Below are positions 17,563 to 38,856 of a stretch of 64,000 nucleotides of DNA, piece by piece. The notes under the pieces were generated by a model, which did no database searches, was not told the DNA's origin, and saw only the letters and a list, made by a program, of their open reading frames with translations. Both the position numbers and the translations under genes were made by a program. Numbering within the stretch: position 1 is the stretch's first letter; each line of letters starts with the position of its first letter. Source of the DNA: Arcobacteraceae bacterium (GTDB lineage Bacteria; Campylobacterota; Campylobacteria; Campylobacterales; Arcobacteraceae); contig JAIOSF010000023.1 of assembly GCA_021107755.1 (NCBI GenBank), positions 124,001 through 188,000 of the forward strand. The letters are read 5' to 3'.

Positions 17563-17581
17563 AATGATATTGATTATCATT
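17563..17581. promoter_or_regulatory. Candidate Fur box before the second receptor operon
   Basis: AATGATATTGATTATCATT closely resembles the classical Fur box and is inverted around its centre (AATGATA / TATCATT). It is 28 bases before a tiny leader frame and 111 bases before the TonB receptor start. Confidence 0.75.
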
Positions 17582-17608
17582 AACTGTATAATCAATCAAA
17601 GGAAAATA

Positions 17609-17641
17609 ATGATACTTAAAAAAATTTATCGCTGTAGATAG
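17609..17641 (+). CDS. Possible 10-codon leader peptide
   Basis: A very short frame (M-I-L-K-K-I-Y-R-C-R-stop) begins at 17609 after AAAGGAAAATA, a good ribosome site. Its stop codon lies inside the left arm of the hairpin at 17636-17657. It sits between the Fur-like box and the receptor gene. A frame this short can arise by chance, so it is offered as a candidate leader only. Confidence 0.3.
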   Translation: MILKKIYRCR

Positions 17642-17657
17642 CCCATTTGGGCTATCT
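17636..17657 (+). promoter_or_regulatory. Perfect leader hairpin upstream of TonB receptor
   Basis: AGATAGCCC (17636-17644) and GGGCTATCT (17649-17657) form a perfect 9-bp stem with an ATTT loop. No run of T follows, so it is a weak intrinsic terminator by itself. It overlaps the stop of the short leader frame and lies 34 bases upstream of the receptor ATG. Confidence 0.6.
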
Positions 17658-17691
17658 AAATTTCGAATAAAATACAAAATTGGAGAATTTT

Positions 17692-19827: not shown

Positions 19828-20792
19828 TGAAAAAGTTATTATTACTATTTTTATTTATTGTAAATGTTTTTGCTATGCAAAAGATGGATAAACTTATCAT
19901 TGCAGGACCCGTTGCTACAGTTTCACACCCATTTTTCAAAATGATTCAAAGTGGTGCTTTAGCTGATGTAGCTGCAAAAGTCGAATTTAGACTTTGGAAA
20001 AATCCAGATGAATTAAGAGCCATACTTTTAAAAAAAGAGGCTCATATCGTTGCTATTCCTACCAATGTTGCTGCAAATTTATACAATAAAAAAGAGGATA
20101 TAAAGATTCTTAATGTATCTATTTGGGGAATTTTAGAAATTATATCAAGAGATAAAAATATCAAAACAATTGAAGACTTAAAAGGGCAAGAGATAGTTGT
20201 GCCTTTTAGGAGTGATATGCCAGATATTGTACTGCAAGCTATTATGAAAAAAGCAGGACTCAATCCTAAAAAAGATTTTGATATACAATATGCACCAACA
20301 CCTCCTGATGCTATGCAAATGCTTATTTTAAGAAGAGCAGACAATGTTCTTTTAGCAGAACCTGCAACTTCAATGGCTATGATTAAAACAGGTTCATTTC
20401 CTTTAAAACTTATTGCTCCAGATATTTATAGAAGTGTAAACTTGCAAAAAGAGTGGGGAAGAGTTTTTCAAGTAGATGGAAAAATTCCACAAGCTGCTAT
20501 AGCCGTTGTTGGTAAACTTGATAATCAAATAGCAACAAGAGTTGAAGAGGAATACAAAAAAGCTGTTTCTTGGTATAAAAACAACCCACATGAAGCTGGA
20601 GTTTTAGTAAAAAAATATATAGATTTCTTTTCACCTCAAGCTGTTAGTGCATCAATACCAAATGTTCAAATCCAAGCAGTAAGTGCAATGGATGCTAAAG
20701 AAGATTTAGAAAAGTTTTTTCAAATACTTTTGGAAAATGAGCCAAAACTCATAGGTGGAAAAATACCTGATGAAGGTTTGTATTTTAAATGA
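19827..20792 (+). CDS. ABC substrate-binding protein, NMT1/SsuA-like
   Basis: This 321-residue secreted binding protein of the NMT1/SsuA/TauA-like type has a signal peptide of residues 1-16 (ends VFAMQ). The domain shows KLIIAGPVATVSHPFF, PDELRAILLKKEAHIVAIP and TIEDLKGQEIVVPF. Relatives bind sulfonates, thiamine precursors or nitrate. Coupling to a TonB receptor behind a Fur-like box is unusual for that family and points to a scarce metal complex, a metallophore or another large ligand. This is inference. It overlaps both neighbouring genes by four bases or fewer. Confidence 0.82.
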   Translation: MKKLLLLFLFIVNVFAMQKMDKLIIAGPVATVSHPFFKMIQSGALADVAAKVEFRLWKNPDELRAILLKKEAHIVAIPTNVAANLYNKKEDIKILNVSIWGILEIISRDKNIKTIEDLKGQEIVVPFRSDMPDIVLQAIMKKAGLNPKKDFDIQYAPTPPDAMQMLILRRADNVLLAEPATSMAMIKTGSFPLKLIAPDIYRSVNLQKEWGRVFQVDGKIPQAAIAVVGKLDNQIATRVEEEYKKAVSWYKNNPHEAGVLVKKYIDFFSPQAVSASIPNVQIQAVSAMDAKEDLEKFFQILLENEPKLIGGKIPDEGLYFK

Positions 20793-21571
20793 AAACCATT
20801 ATAAAAATACTTAAAGATTTTCCTTGGTTTTTATGGAGTGGTTGGGGCAGTATCGCCTCAATCTTCCTTTTTTTAGCTTTTTGGGATATGGGAAATCAAA
20901 TCTATGGTGACTTAGTTTTACCCTCCCCTAAAGAGGTATTATTAACTGTTTTTTCACTTTTTGAACAACAAGAGTTTATAGAAAATTTACTGCTGACTAT
21001 AAAAAGAGGAATTATGGGCTTTGGAATATCTTTAGCTATTGGAACATTTTTTGGACTAATTGCTGGATACTTTATCACAGCTTCTGTTATGAGTCGTCCT
21101 ATTGTTACTATCTTAGTAGGAATTCCCCCTATTGCTTGGATAGTTTTAGCCATGATTTGGTTTGGTTTTGGAGATATGACTGTGATGTTTACAGTTGTAA
21201 TTGCTTCTTTTCCTATTGTATTTGTTGGTGCTTTACAAGGAAGTAGAACTTTAGAGGGAGATTTCAAAGAGATGATGGATAGTTTCCATTTAAGTTTTTG
21301 GCAAAAATGTAAAGACCTCTATTTCCCTCATCTTTTTTCATACCTTTTTCCTTCATGGGTTTCGGCTCTTGGTATGAGTTGGAAAATTGTAATTATGGCA
21401 GAACTTTTAAGTGCAAATGATGGTATTGGAGCTTCACTAGCCGTTGCAAGAAGTCATCTTGATACTCCAACTGCTTTAGCTTTAGTTATGACTATGGTGG
21501 GTGTTTTGCTTTTTGTTGAATATATTATTTTAGAACCAATTAAAAAAGAGGTTGAATCATGGAGAGATTAG
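20789..21571 (+). CDS. ABC permease, SsuC/TauC-like
   Basis: This 260-residue inner-membrane permease of the BPD_transp_1 family has about six helices. The EAA-loop region GALQGSRTLEGDFKEMMDSF lies at about residues 148-167, after PIAWIVLAMIWFGFG. Downstream LGMSWKIVIMAELLSANDGIG is the typical SsuC/TauC C-terminal segment. It overlaps the binding-protein gene by four bases and the ATPase gene by 13. It should form a homodimer bound by two copies of the adjacent ATPase. Confidence 0.88.
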   Translation: MKTIIKILKDFPWFLWSGWGSIASIFLFLAFWDMGNQIYGDLVLPSPKEVLLTVFSLFEQQEFIENLLLTIKRGIMGFGISLAIGTFFGLIAGYFITASVMSRPIVTILVGIPPIAWIVLAMIWFGFGDMTVMFTVVIASFPIVFVGALQGSRTLEGDFKEMMDSFHLSFWQKCKDLYFPHLFSYLFPSWVSALGMSWKIVIMAELLSANDGIGASLAVARSHLDTPTALALVMTMVGVLLFVEYIILEPIKKEVESWRD

Positions 21572-22305
21572 AGGAGAGATTAAAAGTAAGTGAATTAAAT
21601 TTTTATTTTGGGTTTACACAAATCTTAAATAATATCAATTTTGAACTAAAGACAGGTGAAGTTATAAGTATAGTAGGTCCAAGTGGTGGTGGGAAAACAA
21701 CACTATTAAAACTTTGTAGTGATCTTCTTGATGTAACAGAAGGAGAGATAACAAATAGTTTTACCTCATCAGCTTTTGCTTTTCAAGATGCGAGATTACT
21801 TCCTTGGAAAACAGTAGTTGAAAATATTATGCTCCCTATTATAGCAACAAAAAAATATACTACAGCATACAAAGAAGCCTGTGAAATAGCCCTAAGATTT
21901 GGACTTGAAGAGAAAGATTTTATAAAATATCCAAAAGATTTAAGTGGAGGGATGAAACAGCGAGTTAATTTTGCAAGAGCTTTAATTACTAAACCTAGAT
22001 TACTTTTTTTGGATGAACCATTTTCAGCACTTGATATTGGGCTTAAAAGAGAATTACAAGACTTTGTACTTAAAAGTTGTGAAGAGTTTGGTACTAGTGT
22101 GTTGTTTATTACCCATGATTTAATGGAAGCGATTCGATTAAGTGATAAAATTTTACTTTTGAAAAGTGACCCTGGTGAAATTATCAAAACATATACTATC
22201 AATGAAACACAAAATACAAGAGATGATAGTTTTATTTTTACTAAAACACAAGAGTTTTTAAATGATTGTGATGTTATCAATACATTTGAAATAAAGGCAA
22301 TATAA
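21559..22305 (+). CDS. ABC ATPase, SsuB/TauB-like
   Basis: This 248-residue nucleotide-binding subunit has Walker [10 protein letters not shown] (about 39-47), Q-loop [13 protein letters not shown], signature LSGGMKQR, Walker [13 protein letters not shown] and H-loop ITHDLMEA. The LLPW and MKQRV elements are typical of SsuB/TauB-type importers. The sole ATPase of the set, it is coupled by overlap to the permease and ends in an ATG overlap with the NnrS gene. All catalytic motifs are intact. Confidence 0.92.
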
Positions 22306-23537
22306 TGGAAATTAATCAAAAACAAAATGCAACAAAACATTATAAATTTTATCCCGATGAAGATAATATTCCACCCTATTTAGCCTATGGATTCCGCCCA
22401 ATATTTTTAATACTTCCACTTTATATGGCAACTCTTATAATTTTATGGGGTTTTGTATTTAGTGGTAGTTTAAATATTTTTGATGACCCTTTAAGTTGGC
22501 ATATCTATGAGATGTTATTTGGAGTGGGTATTGCGGGGATTATGGCTTTTATCTTTACAGGTTTACCTGAGCTTTTCCCTGGACTTGTTCCAATAGTGGG
22601 AAAACGACTGAGCAAGATTATTGCTTTATGGATTGCTGGAAGAGTGAGTTTTTGGTGTATTGATATTGTAGGTATTTATGTTGTTGGATTTATCAATATT
22701 GCATTATGGGTATATATCATTGTATGGGCTTTTAAACCTGTAGTTTTAGATAAACTACAAAGACACTCAAGTATTGCTTATACTATAGTGGTCCTGACAG
22801 TTTTACAGATACTTTTTTTTGCTTCGAAAGCACAACTCATTTTTCTAAACTCATTAGAGATTCTAAAAGTAAGTATCGGTGGATTTATGGTTCTTACTTT
22901 ACTTGCATTAAGACGGGTAAATATGGAAGCTATCAATGAAATTTTAGAGCATAAACAATTAGATGATGTATTTATAGCAAAACCCTTTCGTTATAACTTA
23001 GCCATATTTACAGTCATTTTATTTACAACTATAGAGTATTTCTATCCAACAAACTCTATTTTAAGCTGGTTAGGTTTTGCTTGTTTTGCTGCAATTTTAG
23101 GAATTTTAAATGACTATAATCTTAAATTTGAATCTGTACTAAAAGAACCTTTTGTTTGGTATTTAACTAGTATTGTTATTATGATGGCTTTAGGATATGG
23201 TTTTTTGGGTTTTTCCAATTTATATAATTTTGGAAATGAAAATCATTTTAGACATTTTTTAACAACAGGAGCTTTTGGAATATCTTTTTTCATGGTTATG
23301 GTTATAATTGCACATGTACATACAGGAAGAGTTCTTAAGTCTAATTGGTGGATAGCTAGTAGTGTTATTTTACTTATTCTTGCGACTTTTTGTAGAACTT
23401 TAATACCATTTTTTCCAAACTACTATATGATACTTATGTATATATCTATACTATTTTGGATTGTACCTTTTATAATATATTTTATACAGACAAAAGAGTT
23501 TTTATTATTACCTCGTGTAGATGGAATCAAAGGTTAA
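22305..23537 (+). CDS. NnrS-family membrane protein
   Basis: This 410-residue protein has about 12 membrane helices and belongs to the NnrS family, haem- and copper-containing proteins linked to nitric oxide tolerance. Family-like features are [19 protein letters not shown] near residue 24, [20 protein letters not shown] and several membrane His residues ([10 protein letters not shown] and AHVHTGR near the C-terminus). Its start overlaps the ABC ATPase stop. Placement at the end of a Fur-boxed TonB/ABC operon suggests a link to iron or haem supply rather than a pure NO regulon. Role is inferred. Confidence 0.85.
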
Positions 23538-26826: not shown

Positions 26827-26841
26827 TGATAATTATTATCA
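26827..26841. promoter_or_regulatory. Candidate Fur box 1, DUF1007/fur divergent region
   Basis: TGATAATTATTATCA is a perfect 7-1-7 palindrome, the most symmetrical of the Fur-like sites here. It is 48 bases from the DUF1007 start and 96 bases from the fur start. Confidence 0.8.
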
Positions 26842-26879: not shown

Positions 26880-26894
26880 TGATATTAATTATCA
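26880..26894. promoter_or_regulatory. Candidate Fur box 2, upstream of fur
   Basis: TGATATTAATTATCA has TGATA/TATCA arms around a five-base centre, 43 bases before the fur ATG. Together with box 1 it suggests autoregulation of fur and of the operon behind it. Confidence 0.7.
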
Positions 26895-26936: not shown

Positions 26937-27398
26937 ATGAAAAAAGGTTTAACTATAACTTATGATGAGTATATGTTAAAATTTAAAGGTCTTATCAAGT
27001 CTTTAGGACTCAATAATTCAGTACAAAGAGAATATGTATTAAAAATATTATTTGATTGTGACAATCACTTAAGTGCAGAAGATATAGCCAAAAAAGTAAA
27101 AGATGTTCATAATATCAATATAGGTATTGCAACTGTTTACAGAATTTTAGCTTTACTTGAGGAGTTAAATATAATAAAAGGTATCTCAATAGATGGTTTT
27201 GAGAGTAAAGTATATGAGTTAAATCTTACCTCTCATCATGACCATATGGTATGTGTAGAGTGTGGAAAGATTGTAGAGTTTTATGATGCGGAAGTTGAAA
27301 AGATACAAGAATTAGTTGCAATAGAAAATGGTTTTAAACTCCAAAGTCACAATATGATGCTCTATGGCATCTGTAAAGATTGTCAAGAACATGAATGA
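26937..27398 (+). CDS. fur: Fur-family metalloregulator
   Basis: This is a 153-residue Fur repressor. The N-terminal winged helix (about 15-90) includes SAEDIAKKVKD and the recognition region IGIATVYRILALLEE. The dimer/metal domain has the HHDHMVC motif near residue 99 and two CxxC pairs (CVEC and CKDC) that would hold a structural zinc. The sequence is standard Fur rather than PerR or Zur, though these are hard to tell apart by eye. The ATPase gene begins inside its last codons, so fur leads the ferrosome-like operon. Two Fur-like boxes lie upstream. Confidence 0.9.
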   Translation: MKKGLTITYDEYMLKFKGLIKSLGLNNSVQREYVLKILFDCDNHLSAEDIAKKVKDVHNINIGIATVYRILALLEELNIIKGISIDGFESKVYELNLTSHHDHMVCVECGKIVEFYDAEVEKIQELVAIENGFKLQSHNMMLYGICKDCQEHE

Positions 27399-29550
27399 AA
27401 TAGTAATAAAAAGCTCAACTGCTAATAGAGTAAGACTAAAATCAGATATATTTAAAAATTATCAAAATATATCGCTTATTGAGAAAACTCTTCATAATAT
27501 AGTTGTAAACTTTAGAGAAAATACTGCCTGTAAATCGATAGTTTTAACCTATTCTTCTAATACAACTTTAGAAAATATACTACAAAAAATAAATACCCTA
27601 TTTCCAACTATAACACAATCTATCCCAGCTTCAAATGCTATTTGTGGTGTAGAAGGTGGTTGTGTAACTTGTAATATTAAATCAGATATAAGCCCTATTA
27701 CATTTAAAAGAAAAGTTATAGAGTTTGGAATACTTACAGCATATAGCATCTATTTATTTATCACTGAAAATATTTTGGGGATAGTGGCTACTACTAGCCC
27801 ATTTTCGCTTGTAGCTGTTGTAGCAATAGTTGCTGCAATTCCATTACTTAAAGAAGCTTATGAAGATATACAAAAGGGAACATTTACACTACAAACTTTT
27901 ATGAGTGGAACTTTAATCTTAGCTATATTGTTTGGAGAAGCAACGGCAGCTTTTGAGATAATATATATATTAAGAGGAGGTATACTTTTAGAAGAGTATA
28001 TCGCTACAAAATCTAGAAATGAGATAAAAAACCTTATTGAACTTGATATTCAAAAAGTATATACATTAGTTGATGATGTTGAGATTGAAGTTGATATAGA
28101 TGAAATTTGTATTGGAGATGTTGTTGTAAGTAGAAGTGGTGAAAAAATACCTGTAGATGGTATGATTATAGAGGGAAGTGCGGAGATAGATGAGTCCTTA
28201 ATCAATGGTCGAAGTGACAGTGCTTTTAAACAAAAAGATGATGAACTCTTTGCTGGAACTTTTTGTGAAACAGGAAGAGTTTATATCAAAGTAACAGCAA
28301 TAGGAAATGATACTTATATATCTCGAGTGATGAGTGATGTTGAAAAATCTTTAGCTTTGAAATCACCTGCACAACTTGAAGCTGATAAACTAGCTAGTAA
28401 ATTACTCAAACTAGGTTCAATTATGACTTTAGGAACTTTACTAGTCTCTGGTTCATTTTTAAATGCTTTTTCAGTGATGATTATTATGTCGTGTCCTTGT
28501 TCTACTATTTTAGCAGCTTCAACTGCTATTAGTGCGGGGATTGCAAATGGTGCAAAACAAGGTATTTTAATCAAAGGTGGTGAAGCATTAGAAAAAATAA
28601 GTCAAAGTGAAGTATTTTGTTTCGATAAAACAGGTACTTTAACTACTGGAAAACCTATTATAAAAGATATAGTTTTAAGTGAAAATATTGATAAAAAAAC
28701 ATTTTTTTCCTATCTAGCAACGGCAGAATATAGAAACTCTCATCCAATAGCAACAGCAATAGTGGAATATACAAAAAAACTTGATATTTATATAGAACAA
28801 GATGCACAAACAGAAGTTCTTCCAGGATATGGTGTAAAAAGTATCTATAAAAAGAAAGTTATCTTTGCAGGAAATCAAAGCTTATTTACAAAACAAAAAA
28901 TTTCAACAAAAGAGTTTAAAAAACAAACTTCCCATCATCTAGATGATGGGAAAACTATCGTTTATTTAGCTGTTGATAAAAAGCTTTTAGGATATATCAC
29001 TTTAGAACATGAGATTAGAGAAGGTACAAAAAAGATGATAAGTGACTTACGAGCAAAAGGGGTAAAACATATAGCCCTTGTAACAGGAGATGAAGTGAAA
29101 GTAGCCAATGCTTTTGCTCTTGACTTTAACTTCGATACAGTTTTTGCAAACCAAACTCCACATGGAAAAGCTGATGCAATTGAAAGTTTAAAAAAACAAT
29201 ATAAAAATGTAGTGATGGTAGGAGATGGTGTAAATGATACTTTAGCTATGAGTAAAGCTGATGTTGCTATCTCATTTGCAGCAGGTGGAAGTGATGCAGC
29301 TATAGAAGTTTCTAATATTGCTATAACACACTCTCATCCTGAAGATGTTGTCAATCTTTATGACTTAAGTAAAAAAACACTAAAAGTTGTAAATCAAAAC
29401 TATTGGATAGGAACAAGTACAAACATCATAGGTGCAGGCTTTGCTGCTATTGGACTTTTAAGTCCAGCAGCAGCAGGTGCTATACACATAGGACATACAA
29501 CAAGTATCATGGCAAACTCTTCAAGACTTGCTATTGATAACAATTCTTAG
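27391..29550 (+). CDS. P1B-type metal ATPase with CPC but degenerate TGES motif
   Basis: This 719-residue P-type ATPase is counted from the ATG at 27391, which overlaps the fur stop; an in-frame ATG at 27364 is possible. An N-terminal HMA-like segment has RVR in place of CxxC. Hydrophobic helices follow, the CPC metal motif (368-370, MSCPCST), DKTGT with the phosphorylated Asp at 412, NSHPIA, VTGD and VGDGVND. The actuator motif that should read TGES is INGRS (271-275), so the dephosphorylating Glu is missing. This predicts a stalled or regulatory pump. It starts the gene set that ends with a second, complementary ATPase. Confidence 0.88.
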   Translation: MNEIVIKSSTANRVRLKSDIFKNYQNISLIEKTLHNIVVNFRENTACKSIVLTYSSNTTLENILQKINTLFPTITQSIPASNAICGVEGGCVTCNIKSDISPITFKRKVIEFGILTAYSIYLFITENILGIVATTSPFSLVAVVAIVAAIPLLKEAYEDIQKGTFTLQTFMSGTLILAILFGEATAAFEIIYILRGGILLEEYIATKSRNEIKNLIELDIQKVYTLVDDVEIEVDIDEICIGDVVVSRSGEKIPVDGMIIEGSAEIDESLINGRSDSAFKQKDDELFAGTFCETGRVYIKVTAIGNDTYISRVMSDVEKSLALKSPAQLEADKLASKLLKLGSIMTLGTLLVSGSFLNAFSVMIIMSCPCSTILAASTAISAGIANGAKQGILIKGGEALEKISQSEVFCFDKTGTLTTGKPIIKDIVLSENIDKKTFFSYLATAEYRNSHPIATAIVEYTKKLDIYIEQDAQTEVLPGYGVKSIYKKKVIFAGNQSLFTKQKISTKEFKKQTSHHLDDGKTIVYLAVDKKLLGYITLEHEIREGTKKMISDLRAKGVKHIALVTGDEVKVANAFALDFNFDTVFANQTPHGKADAIESLKKQYKNVVMVGDGVNDTLAMSKADVAISFAAGGSDAAIEVSNIAITHSHPEDVVNLYDLSKKTLKVVNQNYWIGTSTNIIGAGFAAIGLLSPAAAGAIHIGHTTSIMANSSRLAIDNNS

Positions 29551-29610
29551 TTTATTTTAAGTGAAACAAAATAATAAAAAGAGAAAAATTACACTAAAGG
29601 AGTATATAAG

Positions 29611-29928
29611 TTGGAAATAACACCAGAGAAATTAGTGCAAATCGCTTCATATTTTACTGTTATCTCCCATACAAAGGGGAGATTAAGAGTTCGGGTAAAT
29701 CCTAAAATTCAAACGGAAGTAAGTGATGTATCTATTGATGATATACAAAATATATCAAATAAAATTAATGGAATTAAAAAAATAAAAATAAATAAAATAA
29801 TAGCATCTGTAACAATAGAATATGATAATGATATTTTTCCAAAACAACACTGGGATAATCTTATCAATGGAAAAGACTTAGATGAAGTTATACAAATTAT
29901 TACAAATTTACAAAAGGAGGTAAATTAA
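29611..29928 (+). CDS. Free HMA-like domain protein
   Basis: This 105-residue protein looks like a single heavy-metal-associated-type ferredoxin fold. The start is TTG at 29611 with AAAGGAG nine bases upstream. Instead of a CxxC metal site it has HTKGRLRVRV (residues 20-29), the Gly-Arg-x-Arg signature of HMA_2-like domains. The same R-x-R feature appears at the N-termini of both ATPases of this operon. No signal peptide or membrane helix. It sits 60 bases after the first ATPase and abuts the ferritin-like gene. A docking or regulatory partner is inferred. Confidence 0.7.
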   Translation: MEITPEKLVQIASYFTVISHTKGRLRVRVNPKIQTEVSDVSIDDIQNISNKINGIKKIKINKIIASVTIEYDNDIFPKQHWDNLINGKDLDEVIQIITNLQKEVN

Positions 29929-30645
29929 ATGGAAATAAATTTTGATGAAGATTTACTTGTAACACTTAGAGTTGATCCAACTTATGATGAGCCAATTTTA
30001 AATCAAGTGTTAAGAATAGCAATTTATGATGAATACCATGCTTATGAGACTTATAGAAAAGTGATAGAAACTTTTGGAAATGTTATGCCATTTTCAAACA
30101 TTATTGAGGCTGAGATAAGACATTATAATGCAATTATACCATTATTAGAAAAGTACAATGTAGAGGTACCTATTGATAATTGGTATGAAAAAATAGTATT
30201 ACCAAATACTTTGGTTGAATGTTGTGAAGTTGGTGTTGCAGCTGAGATTGACAATATACAGATGTATGATAATCTACTTTTATATGTATCTGAATATCCT
30301 GATATTCAAGATGTATTATATAAACTTCAAGCAGCCTCGTATAACAACCACTTACCAGCATTTAGAAATTGTGTCATTCAGTATACTAATGAAGCTGTAA
30401 ATATCAATAATATTTACAATAGTTTTAGTGAACACAACGGGGTAAATACAAATCCAGAGATGCTTAATAAAGTCAATGACTTTAGAAACATAGCAACAAA
30501 GTTTGCAAGTGGACAGATAAATGAACAAGATGTAATCAAACTTTTTAGTAGTGTGGATACCGCTACTATTGGTGGTGTATTACTAGGTGGATTGGGTGCT
30601 ATGCAACTAGTAAAAATGATGAATGAAAAAAAAGAAGGAGAATAA
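29929..30645 (+). CDS. Ferritin-like (DUF2202-type) protein with hydrophobic C-terminal tail
   Basis: This 238-residue protein has a four-helix ferritin-like domain (about 20-155). Candidate diiron ligands are in DEYHAYETY (helix 1), EAEIRHY (ExxH, helix 2), AAEIDNIQMY (helix 3) and SYNNHLPAF (helix 4), a DUF2202-like pattern. A linker follows, then a glycine-rich hydrophobic stretch, TIGGVLLGGLGAMQLVKMM, near the C-terminus that could be a membrane anchor. Translation start follows AAAAGGAGG. Located between the HMA-like protein and three small membrane proteins, it could oxidise or hold iron at a membrane. Function is inferred. Confidence 0.75.
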   Translation: MEINFDEDLLVTLRVDPTYDEPILNQVLRIAIYDEYHAYETYRKVIETFGNVMPFSNIIEAEIRHYNAIIPLLEKYNVEVPIDNWYEKIVLPNTLVECCEVGVAAEIDNIQMYDNLLLYVSEYPDIQDVLYKLQAASYNNHLPAFRNCVIQYTNEAVNINNIYNSFSEHNGVNTNPEMLNKVNDFRNIATKFASGQINEQDVIKLFSSVDTATIGGVLLGGLGAMQLVKMMNEKKEGE

Positions 30646-30646
30646 A

Positions 30647-30889
30647 ATGTTACCATTTATAGCAGGAATTGCAGCAGGTGCAGTAGCAGTTGTGGCGGTT
30701 AATAACAATAAAAAAATAAAAAAACAAGTGATAAAAGGTGCTACAAAAGTAAAAGAGGCAGCAACACAAGGAGCAACAAAGATTCAAGAAACAGCAAAAG
30801 ATGTAAAAAAAACTGTTGAAGAAAAAATTGATTGTTTAACTTCAAAAAAAGAAACTAAAAAAGAACTAGAGGCAAAAAATGATAAGTAG
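30647..30889 (+). CDS. Small membrane protein with amphipathic Lys/Thr tail (YtxH-like)
   Basis: This is an 80-residue protein from the ATG at 30647, chosen for the AAGGAG six bases upstream. One N-terminal hydrophobic helix (IAGIAAGAVAVVAV) rich in small residues is followed by a repetitive, highly charged helix (KGATKVKEAATQGATKIQETAKDVKKTVEEK) resembling YtxH or LEA-like membrane-associated helices. One Cys (DCLTS). It overlaps the next gene by 11 bases. Such single-span proteins with amphipathic tails often shape or bind membranes; in this operon a structural role is possible. No family was identified with certainty. Confidence 0.7.
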   Translation: MLPFIAGIAAGAVAVVAVNNNKKIKKQVIKGATKVKEAATQGATKIQETAKDVKKTVEEKIDCLTSKKETKKELEAKNDK

Positions 30890-31229
30890 TATAGCAATAG
30901 ATACAGGTGATCAAAGAAGTGTAACAGGACATTTAGTAAGTGGTACAGTCTTGGCTGGAATTATAGCTGGAGGATTGAATTACTCAAAGTATAAAAAAGA
31001 GGAAATCTCTCAAAAAGAGCTTATAAACAATACCACTAAAGTAGCTTTTCAAGGTGGAATCGCAACCGCATCTGCAATAGCAACTGCAAACTATATTGGA
31101 ACAGGAAATATTCTAGGAGCAATGACTGCTATGAGTGTTGGTGCAATGGGTGTTTATGCTACACAAAAAGTATATGACAAATTAGAAATAGAATCACAAA
31201 AAACAAAGGAGATAAAAGATGCAAAATAA
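30879..31229 (+). CDS. Small glycine-rich two-span membrane protein
   Basis: This 116-residue protein has two hydrophobic regions rich in Gly/Ala: GTVLAGIIAGGLNY (about 22-35) and ATASAIATANYIGTGNILGAMTA region to GAMGVY (about 60-100). GxxxG-type spacing recurs. Polar segments between and after are Lys/Glu/Gln-rich. The start overlaps the upstream gene by 11 bases and the stop overlaps the downstream gene by 11, so strong co-translation is expected. I cannot name the family. The glycine zippers suggest tight helix packing, as in small organelle-membrane proteins. Confidence 0.7.
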   Translation: MISSIAIDTGDQRSVTGHLVSGTVLAGIIAGGLNYSKYKKEEISQKELINNTTKVAFQGGIATASAIATANYIGTGNILGAMTAMSVGAMGVYATQKVYDKLEIESQKTKEIKDAK

Positions 31230-31635
31230 ACATATGAATAATAATCAAGGGCAAGGATTTCAAAATAATCCATACATTAATCAAAGTCAAAATATGCAAT
31301 CACAAGGTATCAATACTATGAATACAGCAATGCAAACAAACCCTCAAGCAGCACAGCAAAATCCTTACTACAATACAAACCCAATAAATACACAAACAAA
31401 TCCACAAGCAACAACTATGGACTCACTTTTAGGTTCGTTTGATACAACTAACTTTTTAAAAGGTGCTTTAATTGGTGCAGTTGGTGCATATTTACTAACA
31501 AATGAAAATGCTCAAAAAACAATTTTCAAAACTTTTGCAAAAGGTGCTGATATGTTTGGCGCAGGTATTGAAGAACTCAAAGAGAGAATGGAAGATGCAA
31601 AAGCAGAATTAGAAGCCGAACAAGAATCTAAATAA
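31219..31635 (+). CDS. Asn/Gln-rich protein with one membrane helix
   Basis: This is a 138-residue protein. Residues 1-70 are of low complexity, dominated by Asn, Gln, Met and Pro (for example TNPQAAQQNPYYNTNP) and probably disordered. Then comes a single helix LKGALIGAVGAYLL (about 79-92) with a GAxxGAxGA pattern, followed by an acidic/basic amphipathic helix (ELKERMEDAKAELEAEQ). The start has AAAGGAG eight bases upstream. Position between the small membrane proteins and the second ATPase suggests an assembly or scaffold role. No named family. Confidence 0.7.
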   Translation: MQNKHMNNNQGQGFQNNPYINQSQNMQSQGINTMNTAMQTNPQAAQQNPYYNTNPINTQTNPQATTMDSLLGSFDTTNFLKGALIGAVGAYLLTNENAQKTIFKTFAKGADMFGAGIEELKERMEDAKAELEAEQESK

Positions 31636-31644
31636 AGTCTATAA

Positions 31645-33750
31645 ATGGAAATTCAAACCAAACTACTTCACAGTACCTCAAAAAGAGCTAGGTATTTTTG
31701 TGATATTTTAAAAGAAGAGATAAATATCACTCACCTACAAAATGAACTAATAGCCCTTAAAGGGGTCAATGAAGTACGGATAAATCAAAAAGCAAAATCA
31801 ATTGTATTTGACTTTGAAGATATTGAACTTGATACAATAGAAAAAAAGCTAAAAACTCTTGATATAACAAAACTACAAGTATGTGACACTTTTTTAAGTA
31901 ATAATATCACATGTATAGGTGAAGAGAAACCTTCACAAAAAGGGATATATAGAGCTACAACTGCCCTTTTAGCTGAGCCACTCATCTCAAATGATACAGC
32001 AAAATTAGCAATTACCACTTATGCTACGGCTCCACTTTTAATAGATGGAACAAAAGAGTTATTTAAAGAGGGTCTTACCTCAAGAGTATTGGAAGCTACT
32101 GCAGTTGCAGTTAGTTTAGCAAGAAAAGATTATCTTGCAGCCAATGGTACAAATGCAATGCTTGAACTTGGTGAATATATAGAGGAAACTACAGTTCATA
32201 AAAGTGATGATCTTATCAAAGAGTTAGCTAAACCAAATGTAGAAAAAACATGGTGTGAGATCACAGAAAATAATGAAAAAAAACTTGTTGTTGTTGAAAC
32301 AAAAGATTTAAAAATTGGAGATATTGTTGTAGTTGGAACTGGTGATACAATCCCAATTGATGGACATATCATAAGTGGAACCGCATCAGTGAATCAAGTC
32401 TCAATGACAGGAGAAAGTGCACCAGTTAAAAGAGAAAGAGGAGATAGAGTTATCTCTGGAACTGTAGTTGAAGATGGTCGTATAAAAATATGGGCAGAAC
32501 AAGTTGGTAATGATACAGCAACAGCCAGAATAAAAAACTATATAGCTACCTCTTTAAACGAAAAATCAGCAATAGGTTTGAAAGCTACAAAATTAGCAGA
32601 TAAGCTAGTACCAGTAACTTTAGGACTTGCAGGGGTTTCATATCTTTTAAGTCGTGACTTTGAGACTGTAGCTTCTGTACTACAAGCTGATTACTCATGT
32701 GCTTTAAAACTAGCAACTCCAGTTGCTTTTAAAACATCTATTGCCCAAGCAGGAAAAAATGGTATTATGATAAAAGGTGCAAAATCAATAGAAGCTTTAA
32801 ATGAAGCAGATACTTTTGTTTTTGATAAAACAGGAACTTTAACCTATGGAGAACTTGAAGTTGAAACTATAAAATCTTTTGATAAAGATTGGAGCGAAGA
32901 GGATATATTAAATCTAACTGCCTCTGCTGAAGAGCATTATTTTCATCCTGTAGCCCAAGCTATTGTTGCAGCTGCAAAAAATAAAGGTTTTGTACATATG
33001 CATCATGAAGAGGTTGAATTTATCGTTGCTCATGGTGTAAAAACTATAGTTAATCATAAAGAGGTAGTCATAGGAAGTAGACACTTTTTAGAAGAAGATG
33101 AAAAAATCTCTTTTTCAGAACACGAAAAAGAGATTGAAAAATGTCTTTTAGATGGGAAAACTATCCTTTATGTTGGATATAATGGAAAACTCTTAGGAAC
33201 TATAGGTATGAGAGATATGGTTCGAGAAAATGCAAAAGCTATGATTGAAAAACTCAAAAAACTAGGTGTGACACAAACCATTATGCTTACAGGAGATATT
33301 CAATCAAAAGCACAACAGTTAGCTGATGAGTTGGGTATTGACAAAGTGTATGCTTCTATGGAACCTACACAAAAAGCACAAATTATACAAGAGCTTAAAG
33401 ACTCTGGAGCAAAAGTTGTTTTTGTAGGAGATGGTATCAATGATGCAGCTGCTTTAATGAACGCTGATGTAGGTATTAGTATGAGTAAAGGTGCAGACAT
33501 AGCTAAAGCTACAGCAGATATAGGTTTATTAAAAGATGATATTGAAGCTGTAGTTGAAGTAAAAGAATTATCTCAAAAAACAATGAAGCTTATCAATAGT
33601 AACTTCAATGCAACTGTAGGTATAAATAGTATTATCTTAGTTGGTGCAACAATAGGACTTTTTAAACCACTTACAACAGCTATATTGCATAATGGTACAA
33701 CCATAGGATTACTAGCAAATTCTATGAAAGGGATACGAGTAAATAGATAA
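31645..33750 (+). CDS. P1B-like ATPase with intact TGES but SCA in place of CPC
   Basis: This is a 701-residue P-type ATPase of the heavy-metal group. The N-terminal HMA-like segment has KRAR (13-16) rather than CxxC. Intact are TGES (255-258, in SMTGESAPVK), DKTGT (Asp394), FHPVAQA, LTGD and VGDGINDAA. In the membrane site the expected CPC is replaced by SCA (351-353, DYSCALKLATP). Non-CPC sites occur in several P1B subgroups; ferrosome FezB is a P1B-6 ATPase, and membership should be tested by phylogeny. It closes the operon and ends at a hairpin facing the convergent CDF gene. Confidence 0.88.
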   Translation: MEIQTKLLHSTSKRARYFCDILKEEINITHLQNELIALKGVNEVRINQKAKSIVFDFEDIELDTIEKKLKTLDITKLQVCDTFLSNNITCIGEEKPSQKGIYRATTALLAEPLISNDTAKLAITTYATAPLLIDGTKELFKEGLTSRVLEATAVAVSLARKDYLAANGTNAMLELGEYIEETTVHKSDDLIKELAKPNVEKTWCEITENNEKKLVVVETKDLKIGDIVVVGTGDTIPIDGHIISGTASVNQVSMTGESAPVKRERGDRVISGTVVEDGRIKIWAEQVGNDTATARIKNYIATSLNEKSAIGLKATKLADKLVPVTLGLAGVSYLLSRDFETVASVLQADYSCALKLATPVAFKTSIAQAGKNGIMIKGAKSIEALNEADTFVFDKTGTLTYGELEVETIKSFDKDWSEEDILNLTASAEEHYFHPVAQAIVAAAKNKGFVHMHHEEVEFIVAHGVKTIVNHKEVVIGSRHFLEEDEKISFSEHEKEIEKCLLDGKTILYVGYNGKLLGTIGMRDMVRENAKAMIEKLKKLGVTQTIMLTGDIQSKAQQLADELGIDKVYASMEPTQKAQIIQELKDSGAKVVFVGDGINDAAALMNADVGISMSKGADIAKATADIGLLKDDIEAVVEVKELSQKTMKLINSNFNATVGINSIILVGATIGLFKPLTTAILHNGTTIGLLANSMKGIRVNR

Positions 33751-33779
33751 ATACTACCATTCAAATTGAAAGGTAGTAT
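33751..33779. terminator. Bidirectional hairpin between ATPase and CDF genes
   Basis: ATACTACC-A-TTCAA and TTGAA-A-GGTAGTAT form a 13-pair stem with one A-A mismatch around a single-base centre (33751-33779). It starts right after the ATPase stop and includes the last codons of the convergent CDF gene. No clear T run is seen, so efficiency is uncertain. Confidence 0.5.
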
Positions 33780-34725
33780 GTACTATTTTAAATTTTTCTT
33801 TTAACTCACTATTTATCTGTTGTAAAAGCTGTTCATAATTTTCTAGTGAAGATTTGTCTATTTTTACATGAGCTGTCATATTGTACATATCTTGTGTTAT
33901 TTCCCAAATATGCACATCATGTAACTCCATCACCTCTTTGTGCTGTTCAATATATTGTTTCACCTCTTCTATATCTATTGGCGAACTTTCCATAAGTGTA
34001 TTAACAGAATGCTTTAAAACATCAACAGCCCATCTTCCAATAACAAAAGCCACTAAAACTGCTAGTATAACATCAATAAAGTACCAATTTGTAAATGAGA
34101 TAACAATATATCCAATAATTATGGCAACAGAAGATAATGCATCACTTAACATATGGACAAAGGCTGATTTTAAATTAATATTATTGTTATCACCTTGCAT
34201 TAAAATAAAACCTGTAATAATATTTACTACTAAGCCTATAACTGCAACTATCATAGCTGTTTTAACATCAATTGTTTGAGGATTGAGAAATCTATCAACA
34301 GCCTCATACAATATCCATAAAATAGAAAGTACTATCGTAATTCCATTTATAAATGCAGCTAATACTTCAGCTCTATAATATCCAAATGTTTTGCTAAGCG
34401 GTGCTTCTTTACTAGCTATTATGATTGCTACAAGAGATATAATAAGTGCAAAAGAATGTGTAAACATATGAATTGCATCTGAAATAAGTGCGAGAGAGTG
34501 TGATAAAAAACCATAAAAAAACTCTGCCAACATTGTTATAAATGTTATCGATAATGCTATTTTTAATACTTTTTTATCTGTTCCCCTATGGTCATGTGTA
34601 TGACCTCCTACTCCATGGTCATGATGATGTTCACAACTTTCACCATGAGAATGATCATGATGGTGATGAGTTTCTTTTTTTAAAAAAGGTTTATGTTCAT
34701 TCAAACCAAAATTACAATTATTCAT
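33754..34725 (-). CDS. CDF-family metal transporter with altered helix-2 site
   Basis: This is a 323-residue cation diffusion facilitator. The N-terminus is His-rich (HHHHDHSHGESCEHHHDHG, about 20-40). Six helices and a cytoplasmic domain follow. Helix 5 has the usual HMLSD (191-195), but helix 2 reads H86xxxH90 (DAIHMFTHS) where zinc CDFs have HxxxD. The paralogue at 15125 keeps HxxxD. The change may shift metal preference. It converges on the ferrosome-like operon and shares its terminal hairpin, so a link to iron or zinc movement there is possible. Upstream lies a 457-base gap with Fur-like sites. Confidence 0.85.
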   Translation of the reverse strand: MNNCNFGLNEHKPFLKKETHHHHDHSHGESCEHHHDHGVGGHTHDHRGTDKKVLKIALSITFITMLAEFFYGFLSHSLALISDAIHMFTHSFALIISLVAIIIASKEAPLSKTFGYYRAEVLAAFINGITIVLSILWILYEAVDRFLNPQTIDVKTAMIVAVIGLVVNIITGFILMQGDNNNINLKSAFVHMLSDALSSVAIIIGYIVISFTNWYFIDVILAVLVAFVIGRWAVDVLKHSVNTLMESSPIDIEEVKQYIEQHKEVMELHDVHIWEITQDMYNMTAHVKIDKSSLENYEQLLQQINSELKEKFKIVHTTFQFEW

Positions 34726-34838: not shown

Positions 34839-34861
34839 ATAGTGATAACAACTATCATTAT
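34839..34861. promoter_or_regulatory. Candidate Fur box before the imelysin operon
   Basis: TGATAACAACTATCA (34843-34857) is a TGATA/TATCA inverted repeat with A/T extensions on both sides. A second AT-rich stretch (TTGATAATGAATATTAAT, near 34899-34916) may be another weaker site. The gap from 34726 to 35182 otherwise holds the small frame at 34965 and no other gene that I can support. Confidence 0.6.
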
Positions 34862-34964
34862 AAGATATAATTAAGATATATTATAATATTATTCTATATT
34901 GATAATGAATATTAATATAATAATACTCAATTATTTTAATTCTATTGTAAAGGAGATAATAGTG

Positions 34965-35057
34965 ATGAACTTATTACAGCGTTTCGTTAATTTTCTAAAA
35001 AAGAATACAAAAATAAATGGTACTTACGGTAGATATAAACAAAATCTAAAAGTATAA
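34965..35057 (+). CDS. Candidate 30-residue small protein
   Basis: An ATG with a strong ribosome site (AAGGAGA, eight bases upstream) opens a 30-codon frame, MNLLQRFVNFLKKNTKINGT then YGRYKQNLKV. The product is basic, with an amphipathic N-terminal half. It sits directly after Fur-like sites and 125 bases before the imelysin gene, as HemP-type small proteins do in other iron loci, but no HemP signature is visible. A second purine-rich AAGGGAGG overlaps the stop, followed by a short start-less coding-like stretch. Real translation is plausible but unproven. Confidence 0.4.
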   Translation: MNLLQRFVNFLKKNTKINGTYGRYKQNLKV

Positions 35058-35182
35058 AGGGAGGATCTTTAAACTACAATAAAAAGAAAGTCAAAGATGA
35101 AAGCGGTCAAACTATACATCTTTAACTTATGGTGTTCAATAAAATATTGAATCTAATTATAACATAAATAGAGGAAAAACAT

Positions 35183-36514
35183 ATGATAAAAACAACAAAA
35201 ACAATGATTTCAGGACTAAGTCTTGCTGCAATTTTAGCATTAAGTGGTTGTACAGCTAACAATCCATCAACTGCAAAAGTACACAATGAACCATCACTTT
35301 TAGAAACTTATGCAAACATAGCAAATGACAACTATAAAGATGCATTAAATGATGCAAAACTATTACAAACAGCTATAGCTGATTTTGCTGAAAATCCTAA
35401 TGAAGATACTTTAGCAAATGCAAAAGCTGCTTGGCTTATATCAAGAGAATCTTATGGATTAACTGAAGCTTTTAGACTTTCAAATGGTCCTATTGACGCA
35501 GAAGAAGGTTGGGTTGCTGATACTTATGGTGCTTTAGAAGGTCAAATCAATGCTTGGCCATTAGATGAAAATATGATTGATTATACTATTGATGCAAAAG
35601 GTGCTAAAACATCAGGAAATATCATAGATACAAAAGGAAAATTCAATCCAGGTGGAGAAGAAAGTTCAAGTGTAGATGTTACAAATATTACAGTTGATGC
35701 AATCACTGCACTTAATGAAAATGGTGGAGAAGCAAATGTTGCTACAGGATACCATGCTGTTGAATTTTTACTTTGGGGACAAGATCAAGATTATAGTAAC
35801 TTTGTAAAAGATTCAGTTACAAAAGGTGCACTAACTGCTGGTCAAAGACCAATAACTGATTTTACTACAGATAAAGATGCGCCAAGAAGATTAGCTTACT
35901 TAAAAGCTAGTGCTCAAAAAATTGTTAATGACTTAACAGTTATCTCAGATGCTTGGAAAACTGGTGATATAACAAACTATAGAGCAGCAATTTTAGGTCT
36001 AAATAGTGATAGTAGTAAAAATATTGATTCAAATGAAGCATTAAAACAAATTTTTGCAGGGTTAGGTGTATTTATCAAGTCAGAACTTGCAAATGAGAGA
36101 ATTGCGGTTGCTGTTTTAACTCCTAGTGAAGAAGATGAACATAGTTGTTTTAGTGATAACACACATAGAGATATAGCTACAAACTATCAAGGTTTCAAAA
36201 ATCTTCTTATGGGAACATACAAAGGTGTAGATTATGGAACAGCTCCTATTGATGCACTTGATGCAAATGTAAAAATGGAAATTTTAGAACTTATTGCACA
36301 AATTGAAACAAAAATTGAATCAATCAATGCAATTGCTCAAACAAGCAGACATTTTGATTATCAAATTCATCCAACAGATCCACAAACAAAAGTTATCGTA
36401 AAACTTAAAAATGAGTTACGAAAACTAGGTGATAAGATGGTAGAAGTTGCTAGTGCAAATGGTATCAAATTATCAGTAGAAGATGTTACAGATGCAGAAG
36501 AAACTAAGTTATAG
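35183..36514 (+). CDS. Imelysin-family iron-regulated lipoprotein
   Basis: This 443-residue imelysin (M75-like) protein belongs to a periplasmic family induced by iron limitation and thought to bind iron or haem-related ligands. A lipobox (ALSGC, Cys23) marks it as a lipoprotein. The family GxHxxE motif is present in GYHAVEFLLWGQD (about 193-205), and a second repeat half follows with HRDIATNYQGFKNLLMGTY. Length matches full two-repeat imelysins. It leads an operon with a diheme oxidoreductase and a second, shorter imelysin; its end overlaps the next gene by 32 bases. Confidence 0.9.
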   Translation: MIKTTKTMISGLSLAAILALSGCTANNPSTAKVHNEPSLLETYANIANDNYKDALNDAKLLQTAIADFAENPNEDTLANAKAAWLISRESYGLTEAFRLSNGPIDAEEGWVADTYGALEGQINAWPLDENMIDYTIDAKGAKTSGNIIDTKGKFNPGGEESSSVDVTNITVDAITALNENGGEANVATGYHAVEFLLWGQDQDYSNFVKDSVTKGALTAGQRPITDFTTDKDAPRRLAYLKASAQKIVNDLTVISDAWKTGDITNYRAAILGLNSDSSKNIDSNEALKQIFAGLGVFIKSELANERIAVAVLTPSEEDEHSCFSDNTHRDIATNYQGFKNLLMGTYKGVDYGTAPIDALDANVKMEILELIAQIETKIESINAIAQTSRHFDYQIHPTDPQTKVIVKLKNELRKLGDKMVEVASANGIKLSVEDVTDAEETKL

Positions 36515-37895
36515 TTTCTTGTATTTAAGTACAGTGGTTTTTACCACTGCACTTTTATCAAATGAAATTACACAAGAAAAATTTGACAAAATATATACTA
36601 CAAAAAACAATTCTAAACATATTTTTTCACAACAAATTACAGGTCTTAACAATGAACAAATAGATAAATTCATCGAAGGAAAAAGTTTTTACAGAATCCC
36701 TTGGGTAGAAGCACCAAGTGCTACAACTGCACGAGATGGTTTAGGACCACTTTTTAATGCAAATACCTGTATTAGCTGCCATCCAAAAAATGGTAAAGGT
36801 TCAATATATAATGAAAATGGTTCAATATCAAGATCTTATATTATAAGAGTTTCAATTCCCTCAAATGGTTCAAAACAACATCAAGATATACTCAAATTCA
36901 ATGGTTTTGTAAGTGAAAAAACTTATGGTTCACAAATAAGTATCAATGGTTCACTTAATGTCCCTTTTGAAGCTAAACCATTAGTAGCATACAAAGATAT
37001 TACAGTAACTTATCCAGATGGAGAAATAGTCACTTTAAAACAACCACTTCATGGAGTTGATCATCAACTTACAAATTTAAACTATGGAAAACTACACGAA
37101 AAAGTATCTCTATCGTCTAGACTTGCCCCTGCTCTTTTAGGACTTGGATTATTAGAACAAATAACTGATGAACAAATATTGGCAAATGAAGATATAGATG
37201 ATATTAATAAAGATGGAATATCTGGAAAAGCAAATATCGTATATAGCCCTCAAGATAAAACTTTTAAAGTTGGAAGATATACATATAAAGCATCAGCACC
37301 CTCAGTAATTCATCAAAGTGCAGCTGCTGCAAATAATGATATGAGTCTAACAAGCCCTTTATTTCCAAATGAAAACTGTACTAATGCACAAGAAAATTGT
37401 CTTAAAGCCCCAAAAGGAGATGCAATGAGAGCTGATACACCTTTTGATTTGCCAATACATAGACTAGAATCTATTGCTTTTTATCTAAAAAATTTAAAAA
37501 TTCCAAAATCAACCATAACTGAATTTGAAGGGGAAAAACTTTTTGCACAAATCGGTTGTATAAAGTGTCATATCCCTTCATTTAACCTTGCAAACAGTTA
37601 TAAAGTAAAACCATTTACAGATATGTTACTTCATGATATGGGTGAGGGTTTAAGTGATGGAAGAGTGGAGTTTAAAGCAACTGAACAAGAGTGGAGAACT
37701 GCTCCACTTTGGGGAATAGGAAAACATAAATTAACTTTAAAAAAAGAGCCTGAGCTTTTACATGACGGGAGAGCCAAAACTATTGAAGAAGCTATTTTAT
37801 GGCATGGTGGAGAAGCTTTAAAGATAAAAAATGATTTTATGAGCTTAACAAAAGAGCAACGAAACAAAGTTATAAACTACATAAAGGAATTATAA
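36483..37895 (+). CDS. Diheme c-type oxidoreductase (DUF1111/DHOR)
   Basis: This 470-residue exported diheme protein is of the thiol-oxidoreductase-like DUF1111 family. The N-terminal hydrophobic signal (SFLYLSTVVFTTALLS) is followed by the first haem site CISCH near residue 96 (NTCISCHPKNGKG) and a second, CIKCH, near residue 360 (IGCIKCHIPSF). Conserved-looking DGRAKTIEEAILWHGGEA lies near the C-terminus. In other bacteria such proteins are co-encoded with imelysins in Fur-regulated operons, as here. The start overlaps the imelysin end; ATG 36492 is an alternative. Confidence 0.88.
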   Translation: MLQMQKKLSYSFLYLSTVVFTTALLSNEITQEKFDKIYTTKNNSKHIFSQQITGLNNEQIDKFIEGKSFYRIPWVEAPSATTARDGLGPLFNANTCISCHPKNGKGSIYNENGSISRSYIIRVSIPSNGSKQHQDILKFNGFVSEKTYGSQISINGSLNVPFEAKPLVAYKDITVTYPDGEIVTLKQPLHGVDHQLTNLNYGKLHEKVSLSSRLAPALLGLGLLEQITDEQILANEDIDDINKDGISGKANIVYSPQDKTFKVGRYTYKASAPSVIHQSAAAANNDMSLTSPLFPNENCTNAQENCLKAPKGDAMRADTPFDLPIHRLESIAFYLKNLKIPKSTITEFEGEKLFAQIGCIKCHIPSFNLANSYKVKPFTDMLLHDMGEGLSDGRVEFKATEQEWRTAPLWGIGKHKLTLKKEPELLHDGRAKTIEEAILWHGGEALKIKNDFMSLTKEQRNKVINYIKEL

Positions 37896-37896
37896 A

Positions 37897-38856
37897 ATGA
37901 GATGGATATTAGGAGTTCTATTTTTAATAAATACACTATTTGCAAATGAGAATTTAACCTCATTGTATGACAATGTTATTTTAAAAAATAGCAAACAAAG
38001 TATAGAAGATATAAGAGTTTTTCAAGAACATATCAAACAAAATAACTTTAATATGGTAAATGATGATTTTAAAAATATTGTAAAGAGTTGGAAAAGTGTA
38101 GAAGCTTTTTATATTTTGGGAGATTTAGATGATAATTATCTTGACACTCCAAGATATTTAGATACTTTTCATCAAGGAAATGAAGATATAAAAGAACAAC
38201 TTGATTTGATTATAGCTAGTTCTGAAGATTTAAAAATAAGTTTATATAAAAACTCACATAAAACGATTAACGCTTTAGAATATATCTTATTTACAAAAAA
38301 TCTTCAAAATCAAAGAATTAAAGATATTACACTTATCATATTGCAAACAATGGAAACTAATCTGCATGATATTTATAATGGTTATTTAGAACAAAAAGAG
38401 AAGTTTTTAAAAGATGAAATTACAGCAAATGCTATTATCTTAAACTCTTTAAGTGAAAACTCTTACAAAATAACAGAGTGGAGAGTTGGAGATACTGCTG
38501 GTTTTACAAAAAAATATGAGGATAAACCTGATAATTCAAGAGCTGAATATAGTATTAGTAAAAATAGTGTCTTAGCAATACAATCAATCCTTGAAACACA
38601 TAAAACTATACTGGATATTCAAAGCTTTAAAAACTTTGGAGATACTTTAAAATCCTATGGAGCAACAAAAGTTTTAGAAGAAACCACAACTTATCTAAAT
38701 AGTGCACTAAAAAGTGCAAACCATATAAAAAACGATGATTTAACAAATACAAAAGAGTTGTATGAAAATCTAAAAAAACTGCATATCGCTTACTATATCT
38801 CACTTATTGATGAGTTAAAAGTTACTGCGAAAATCTTGGATGCGGACGGAGATTAA
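37897..38856 (+). CDS. Second imelysin-like periplasmic protein
   Basis: This is a 319-residue secreted protein resembling the short imelysin companion of DUF1111 operons. The signal peptide ends near LFA-NEN. The helical body includes KSWKSVEAFYILGDLDDNYLDT and INALEYILFTKN, the latter at the position of the GxHxxE motif but with His replaced by Ala (NALE). Metal binding may therefore differ from the first imelysin. It follows the diheme gene by one base and precedes the membrane hydroxylase by three, so it is firmly in the operon. Confidence 0.78.
   Translation: MRWILGVLFLINTLFANENLTSLYDNVILKNSKQSIEDIRVFQEHIKQNNFNMVNDDFKNIVKSWKSVEAFYILGDLDDNYLDTPRYLDTFHQGNEDIKEQLDLIIASSEDLKISLYKNSHKTINALEYILFTKNLQNQRIKDITLIILQTMETNLHDIYNGYLEQKEKFLKDEITANAIILNSLSENSYKITEWRVGDTAGFTKKYEDKPDNSRAEYSISKNSVLAIQSILETHKTILDIQSFKNFGDTLKSYGATKVLEETTTYLNSALKSANHIKNDDLTNTKELYENLKKLHIAYYISLIDELKVTAKILDADGD

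Follow-up and report, generated by a model that had tools for sequence, protein, structure and literature searches.

A predicted Fur-controlled, ferrosome-type operon with a tailed ferritin-like protein in an Arcobacteraceae bacterium

Eight genes at positions 26937-33750 of the window (the whole 64,000-nucleotide stretch of DNA that was analyzed) probably make up a Fur-controlled, ferrosome-type (fez-like) iron-compartment operon. Ferrosomes are small membrane-bounded iron stores, and operon gene sets are thought to build them. The operon is carried by a 2.6-Mb genome of an Arcobacteraceae bacterium, and we know of no report of ferrosomes in the Campylobacterota. A preliminary description of this DNA had proposed a match to ferrosome operons from architecture, and that match is now supported at the sequence level by the clade to which one of the two ATPases (ATP2) belongs, by the homology of its partner proteins and by Fur boxes ahead of the first gene. 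More tentatively, ferrosome-type operons may have twice captured a soluble ferritin-like protein and given it a Gly-rich membrane tail that would tether it to the organelle, and a membrane protein related to MamC may be common to them and to magnetosomes. If these readings are true, the genetic basis of a membrane-bounded iron store is present in about one third of Campylobacterota species, and a ferritin-like protein fixed to such a compartment would join two iron-storage strategies that are usually regarded as separate. The MamC link would likewise suggest a mineral-membrane part common to ferrosomes and magnetosomes, and both the tethered ferritin and the MamC ideas become testable in culturable bacteria.

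Operon organization and regulation

All eight open reading frames are co-directional on the + strand. The spacings between neighbors, from fur to ATP2, are -35, 60, 0, -23, -11, -11 and 9 bases, and the largest (60 bases) separates ATP1 from the HMA gene; these recomputed values bear out the tightly packed run with a single 60-base gap that had been described. Family assignments, made by Pfam and NCBIfam profile searches, agree with most of the gene content originally proposed. The first gene (26937-27398) encodes a Fur-family regulator (PF01475, 5e-35), both ATPases match heavy-metal P1B profiles, the free HMA-like domain matches HMA_2 (PF19991, 7e-8, above the cut-off) and the ferritin-like protein matches DUF2202 (2e-6, above the cut-off). 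The hydrophobic tail attributed to the last of these is also present, with a best 19-residue mean hydropathy of 1.37 and a Gly-rich composition. The core order of HMA, ferritin-like, S1, MamC-like, S3 and ATP2 genes is found repeatedly in many Campylobacterota families, and its recurrence is far beyond chance.

The fur gene is preceded on the + strand by TGATAATTATTATCA (26827-26841), which has no mismatch to the 7-1-7 Fur-box consensus and is the sole exact match in the window, and by TGATATTAATTATCA (26880-26894), which has one mismatch. Sites with at most two mismatches number 12 in the window against 2.3 expected. The boxes fit a predicted control of the operon by iron, in keeping with the link between fez genes and iron starvation that the preliminary description had named, and Fur-linked control has been described for the fez genes of Clostridioides difficile (PMC12574912). 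Fur boxes are not universal among the relatives: several loci have boxes with one or two mismatches, while at many the sites are weak or absent. The operon Fur scores 131 bits against an equivalog cut-off of 200 and is therefore probably a paralog rather than the canonical Fur. Five Fur-family (PF01475) proteins, including the operon copy, are encoded in the source genome.

Partner proteins of the ATPase

The comparison with fez operons was made through stand-ins from Shewanella fidelis/electrodiphila, Vibrio and Azospirillum, which we infer to be the fez operons of the literature from their ATPase type, gene number and genus. Three partner proteins have counterparts in Shewanella-type stand-ins. 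The Campylobacterota and gammaproteobacterial families align with hhalign probabilities of 98.9% (HMA), 98.8% (MamC-like) and 99.2% (S3), compared with 3-16% for control pairs of unrelated small proteins, so that the lack of Fez similarity named at the outset as counting against a ferrosome operon was not what was found. The HMA protein (29611-29928) carries a GRxRxR motif and no CxxC, and CxxC is likewise found in none of its 38 relatives. S1 (30623-30889) is a small membrane protein with one Gly/Ala hydrophobic segment at its N terminus. It matched no curated family in the Pfam and NCBIfam searches, and its position and sequence similarity are kept in relatives. S3 (31219-31635) combines an Asn/Gln-rich N terminus with a Gly-zipper membrane segment.

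The small membrane protein between them (30879-31229) matches the NCBIfam model of the magnetosome protein MamC (NF038051) at 34 bits and 3e-8 over positions 7-97 of 97. MamC-like proteins score 20-36 bits with this model, far under its curated cut-off of 100 bits, which the window protein does not reach; the relationship to MamC is therefore a distant one and not family membership. The model also matches the operon counterparts in Vibrio, Shewanella, Hafnia and Chromatiales, and gives no match to those in Azospirillum and Cereibacter. None of 14 control genomes was matched. Among 298 Campylobacterota genomes there were 26 matches, 25 of them located at this operon, and the single match elsewhere falls in a 1062-residue frame. 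The protein is similar to MamC/Mms13 in length, and the profile match extends across about 90 positions, but the Arcobacteraceae operon differs from magnetosome loci in containing no further magnetosome genes.

The ferritin-like protein

The DUF2202 protein (29929-30645) consists of a four-helix bundle (residues ~23-153) and a hydrophobic C-terminal tail (~211-237). Its AlphaFold model, built with four sequences only, has a confident core (pLDDT ~90) and low confidence in the C-terminal helix and tail. Fold search and profile both point to MJ0754 as the best solved match, with ferritins and bacterioferritins ranking next at marginal E-values. In the papers searched there was no match for DUF2202.

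The tail stands out as the most striking regularity. It is present in all 41 operon-linked copies and in none of 11 stand-alone relatives, and the best 19-residue mean hydropathy is 1.21-2.17 in the former versus at most 0.98 in the latter. The profile similarity of the tail to the small proteins is 29% for S2 (the Met/Pro/Gly-rich protein of gammaproteobacterial operons), 60% for S3 and 92%, over 22 residues, for S1. These similarities are weak and do not establish that the tail was copied from that of S2.

A tree of 53 ferritin-like sequences cannot be explained with fewer than two changes of operon membership. The Campylobacterota operon copies form one group, and two Chromatiales copies, encoded directly upstream of the ATPase gene, group with stand-alone DUF2202 proteins. 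The tree suggests that the ferritin-like gene entered such operons at least twice, in the Campylobacterota and in the Chromatiales. The two Chromatiales metagenome-assembled genomes with the tailed gene (loci L131, 4748-9143, and L140, 78-4176) would represent the independent recruitment.

The candidate ligands E35, E62, H65, E106 and H141 are all present in the window protein and are kept in 23 of 36 aligned sequences, the Chromatiales copy among them. This conservation argues against the possibility that the protein is a structural or adaptor part and no longer an iron enzyme, with the bundle serving protein contacts and the tail membrane assembly. That possibility deserves serious weight, somewhat short of an even chance, and it is compatible with the ferrosome explanation. 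It is favored by one large Campylobacterota lineage that has R/K and G/A in place of the helix-2 ExxH ligands yet keeps the tail and the gene position, by the helix-4 carboxylate, missing even from the window copy (helix 4 reads Y138-N139-N140, where several stand-alone DUF2202 proteins have an acidic residue), and by a separate ferritin-family protein (PF00210) encoded in the source genome. The lineage without ExxH has gained a glutamate at position 140 of helix 4 (NNEY).

The window protein has no hydrophobic N-terminal signal, so its helical domain is probably cytosolic. Because of this predicted location, the missing helix-4 carboxylate and the loss of ligands in many relatives, a tethered iron-handling or scaffold role would fit the protein better than a second mineral store. 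Since the domain would face the cytosol, the term iron store, used in the preliminary description for the system as a whole, may not describe this component.

The two ATPases

ATP2 (31645-33750) reads DYSCALKL in transmembrane segment 4 (TM4) and LHN in TM6, and it has no CPC. HN in TM6 has been published as a feature of P1B-6 ATPases (PMC9374683), and with HN in TM6 and no CPC in TM4 the protein is assigned to this type. Relatives were gathered from plasmids and from genomes of Vibrio, Photobacterium, Shewanella, Ferrimonas, Enterobacterales and Chromatiales, those in named genomes being almost only gammaproteobacterial. Across this family HN in TM6 is found in 116 of 117 sequences; none has CPC, and a single one of the 117 has an N-terminal CxxC. 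The closest named matches are on Arcobacter plasmids (63-67% identity).

In the ATPase tree (LG+C20 model), ATP2 groups with the Azospirillum ATPase (support 100/98) inside a 42-row clade (100/100) that takes in all of these relatives, among them operon ATPases from Shewanella, Vibrio, Photobacterium, Azospirillum and Chromatiales. The Shewanella, Vibrio, Azospirillum and Chromatiales proteins served as stand-ins for FezB, their operons being presumptive fez operons. CopA and ZntA of Escherichia coli, PbrA of Cupriavidus metallidurans and two P1B ATPases of Sinorhizobium meliloti pSymA (unlabelled in the tree, their source record carrying no annotation) lie on the opposite side, and FixI/CcoI-like types are also apart. 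ATPases of Priestia and Fusobacterium, whose TM4 is similar, form the group next to the ATP2 clade, with weak support (89/66); the exact outgroup relations are unsure because the tree was midpoint rooted and some reference rows are on long branches. Priestia plasmids carry clusters in the order HMA2, HMA2, P1B ATPase and HMA2 (locus L080, 4165-7677), in which TM4 reads ICGIKLST and is related to the FezB type.

Of the two ATPases, ATP2 alone is FezB-like, by its P1B-6 features and its clade. ATP1 (27364-29550) has SCPC in TM4, lacks HN in TM6 and falls in a clade of its own (five rows, 100/100), which rules it out as a second FezB. ATP1 occurs in 11 of 298 Campylobacterota genomes at a strict cut-off, adjoining ATP2 in all of them. 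In one genome (G210) a putative ATP1 remnant of 135 amino acids lies ahead of the operon (locus L055, 2507-2911), and the ferritin-like match region of the same locus contains one TAG.

The main rival to a ferrosome operon is a metal efflux platform without an organelle, in which ATP2, clustered by the small proteins acting as scaffolds, would export iron or another divalent metal through the inner membrane. In mycobacteria PacL1 and CtpC assemble into such membrane platforms of high molecular weight, and related proteins of the DUF6110 type occur alongside P1B-6 ATPases (PMC9374683); export from the cell and transport into a vesicle are moreover inseparable by sequence alone. The PacL1-CtpC zinc efflux platform is alike in pairing a P1B-6-related ATPase with a small membrane scaffold protein. 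However, CtpC has CPC in TM4, which ATP2 lacks, and the system is zinc induced and is not reported to have partners of the ferritin-like, MamC-like or HMA kinds (PMC9374683). The Arcobacteraceae operon, which encodes a tailed ferritin-like protein as well as a MamC relative, is like the multigene Shewanella-type operons and unlike the pacL-ctpC pair, and its Fur boxes suggest expression in iron scarcity, the opposite of what is expected of a detoxification pump. An efflux platform is thus considered unlikely. A plain copper or zinc resistance operon is very improbable and was rejected on tree position and motifs: general P1B profiles match both ATPases and the convergent neighboring gene encodes a CDF transporter, but ATP2 is placed with full support outside the CopA, ZntA and PbrA exporters, among which the preliminary description would have expected the ATPases of an ordinary exporter operon, CxxC is absent from the HMA protein and almost absent from the ATP2 family, and Fur boxes lie upstream.

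Occurrence of the operon

A 24-base degenerate DNA pattern for DYSCALKL was used to count ATP2 genes, and it was found in 100 of 298 Campylobacterota genomes, once in each; the reversed pattern, used as a control, gave none. Gene maps of 57 loci have the six-gene core from HMA to ATP2, often led by fur. By direct search, 90 of the 100 genomes have a ferritin-like gene no more than 4 kb from ATP2. Of the remaining ten, seven have a diverged copy detected by profile and three have none, bringing the total with the gene beside ATP2 to 97. The gammaproteobacterial order is HMA, S2, MamC-like, S3 and ATPase, and the Azospirillum operon has six genes (HMA2, HMA, S1-like, a gene at the MamC-like position, S3 and ATPase). 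Fez-like operons are found on plasmids of Arcobacter, Azospirillum and Vibrio and on a conjugative Cereibacter plasmid, suggesting that they have spread horizontally.

Known systems and proposed mechanism

The fez operons of Shewanella putrefaciens and Rhodopseudomonas palustris resemble the Arcobacteraceae operon in their P1B-6 ATPase gene at the 3' end, their small membrane and HMA-like proteins and their six-gene core. The ferrosomes of R. palustris are made from six fez genes (PMC12016538), the same number as in the Azospirillum operon, which was counted in favor of a ferrosome-type operon. The Arcobacteraceae operon differs from them in being led by fur and in its optional ATP1, and after HMA it has the tailed ferritin-like protein where gammaproteobacterial operons have S2. 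The Fez systems of Desulfovibrio magneticus and C. difficile (FezAB) are alike, by description only, in a FezB-type ATPase and Fur-linked control. FezC proteins of the DUF4405 type (D. magneticus and D. indicum types; PMC10979944) have no counterpart in the Arcobacteraceae operon, where Pfam searches gave no DUF4405 match. Two DUF4405 proteins are encoded elsewhere in the source genome, one about 42 kb from the operon (G000:C21:109227-109427) and one on another contig (G000:C6:119500-119646). No DUF4405 protein was observed in operons of the Shewanella or Azospirillum type either, and FezC is therefore probably not a universal fez feature. The missing FezC, the missing helix-4 carboxylate, the loss of ExxH and the variable Fur boxes were counted as points against a ferrosome-type operon.

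In the ferrosome mechanism proposed here, iron scarcity would cause Fur to release the operon. The Gly-zipper proteins S1, MamC-like and S3, together with the ferritin-like tail, would come together within the inner membrane and give it the form of a vesicle or patch. Cytosolic Fe(II) would be moved into this vesicle by ATP2, partnered by the HMA protein, while ATP1 would serve as an optional second pump, and upon the return of iron the metal would collect inside. The ferritin-like helical domain, which probably lies at the vesicle surface that faces the cytosol, may bind iron or hand it over near ATP2, or may act as a scaffold. From the genes we infer the direction of transport, the metal, the granules and the topology of the tail alike.

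Genomic neighborhood

The operon has other candidate iron genes on both sides. TonB-dependent receptor and ABC transporter genes lie at 17565-23534, with a Fur-box-like site (one mismatch) just upstream at 17565. A cluster of imelysin, di-haem oxidoreductase and imelysin genes (34843-38853), which is likely involved in iron uptake, is preceded by two Fur-box-like sites with two mismatches each (34843 and 34900). Together with the fez-like operon, these genes look like an iron region. Between the operon and the imelysin cluster, a CDF-family cation transporter with a His-rich N terminus is encoded on the - strand (33754-34725), convergent with ATP2 and 3 bases from it.
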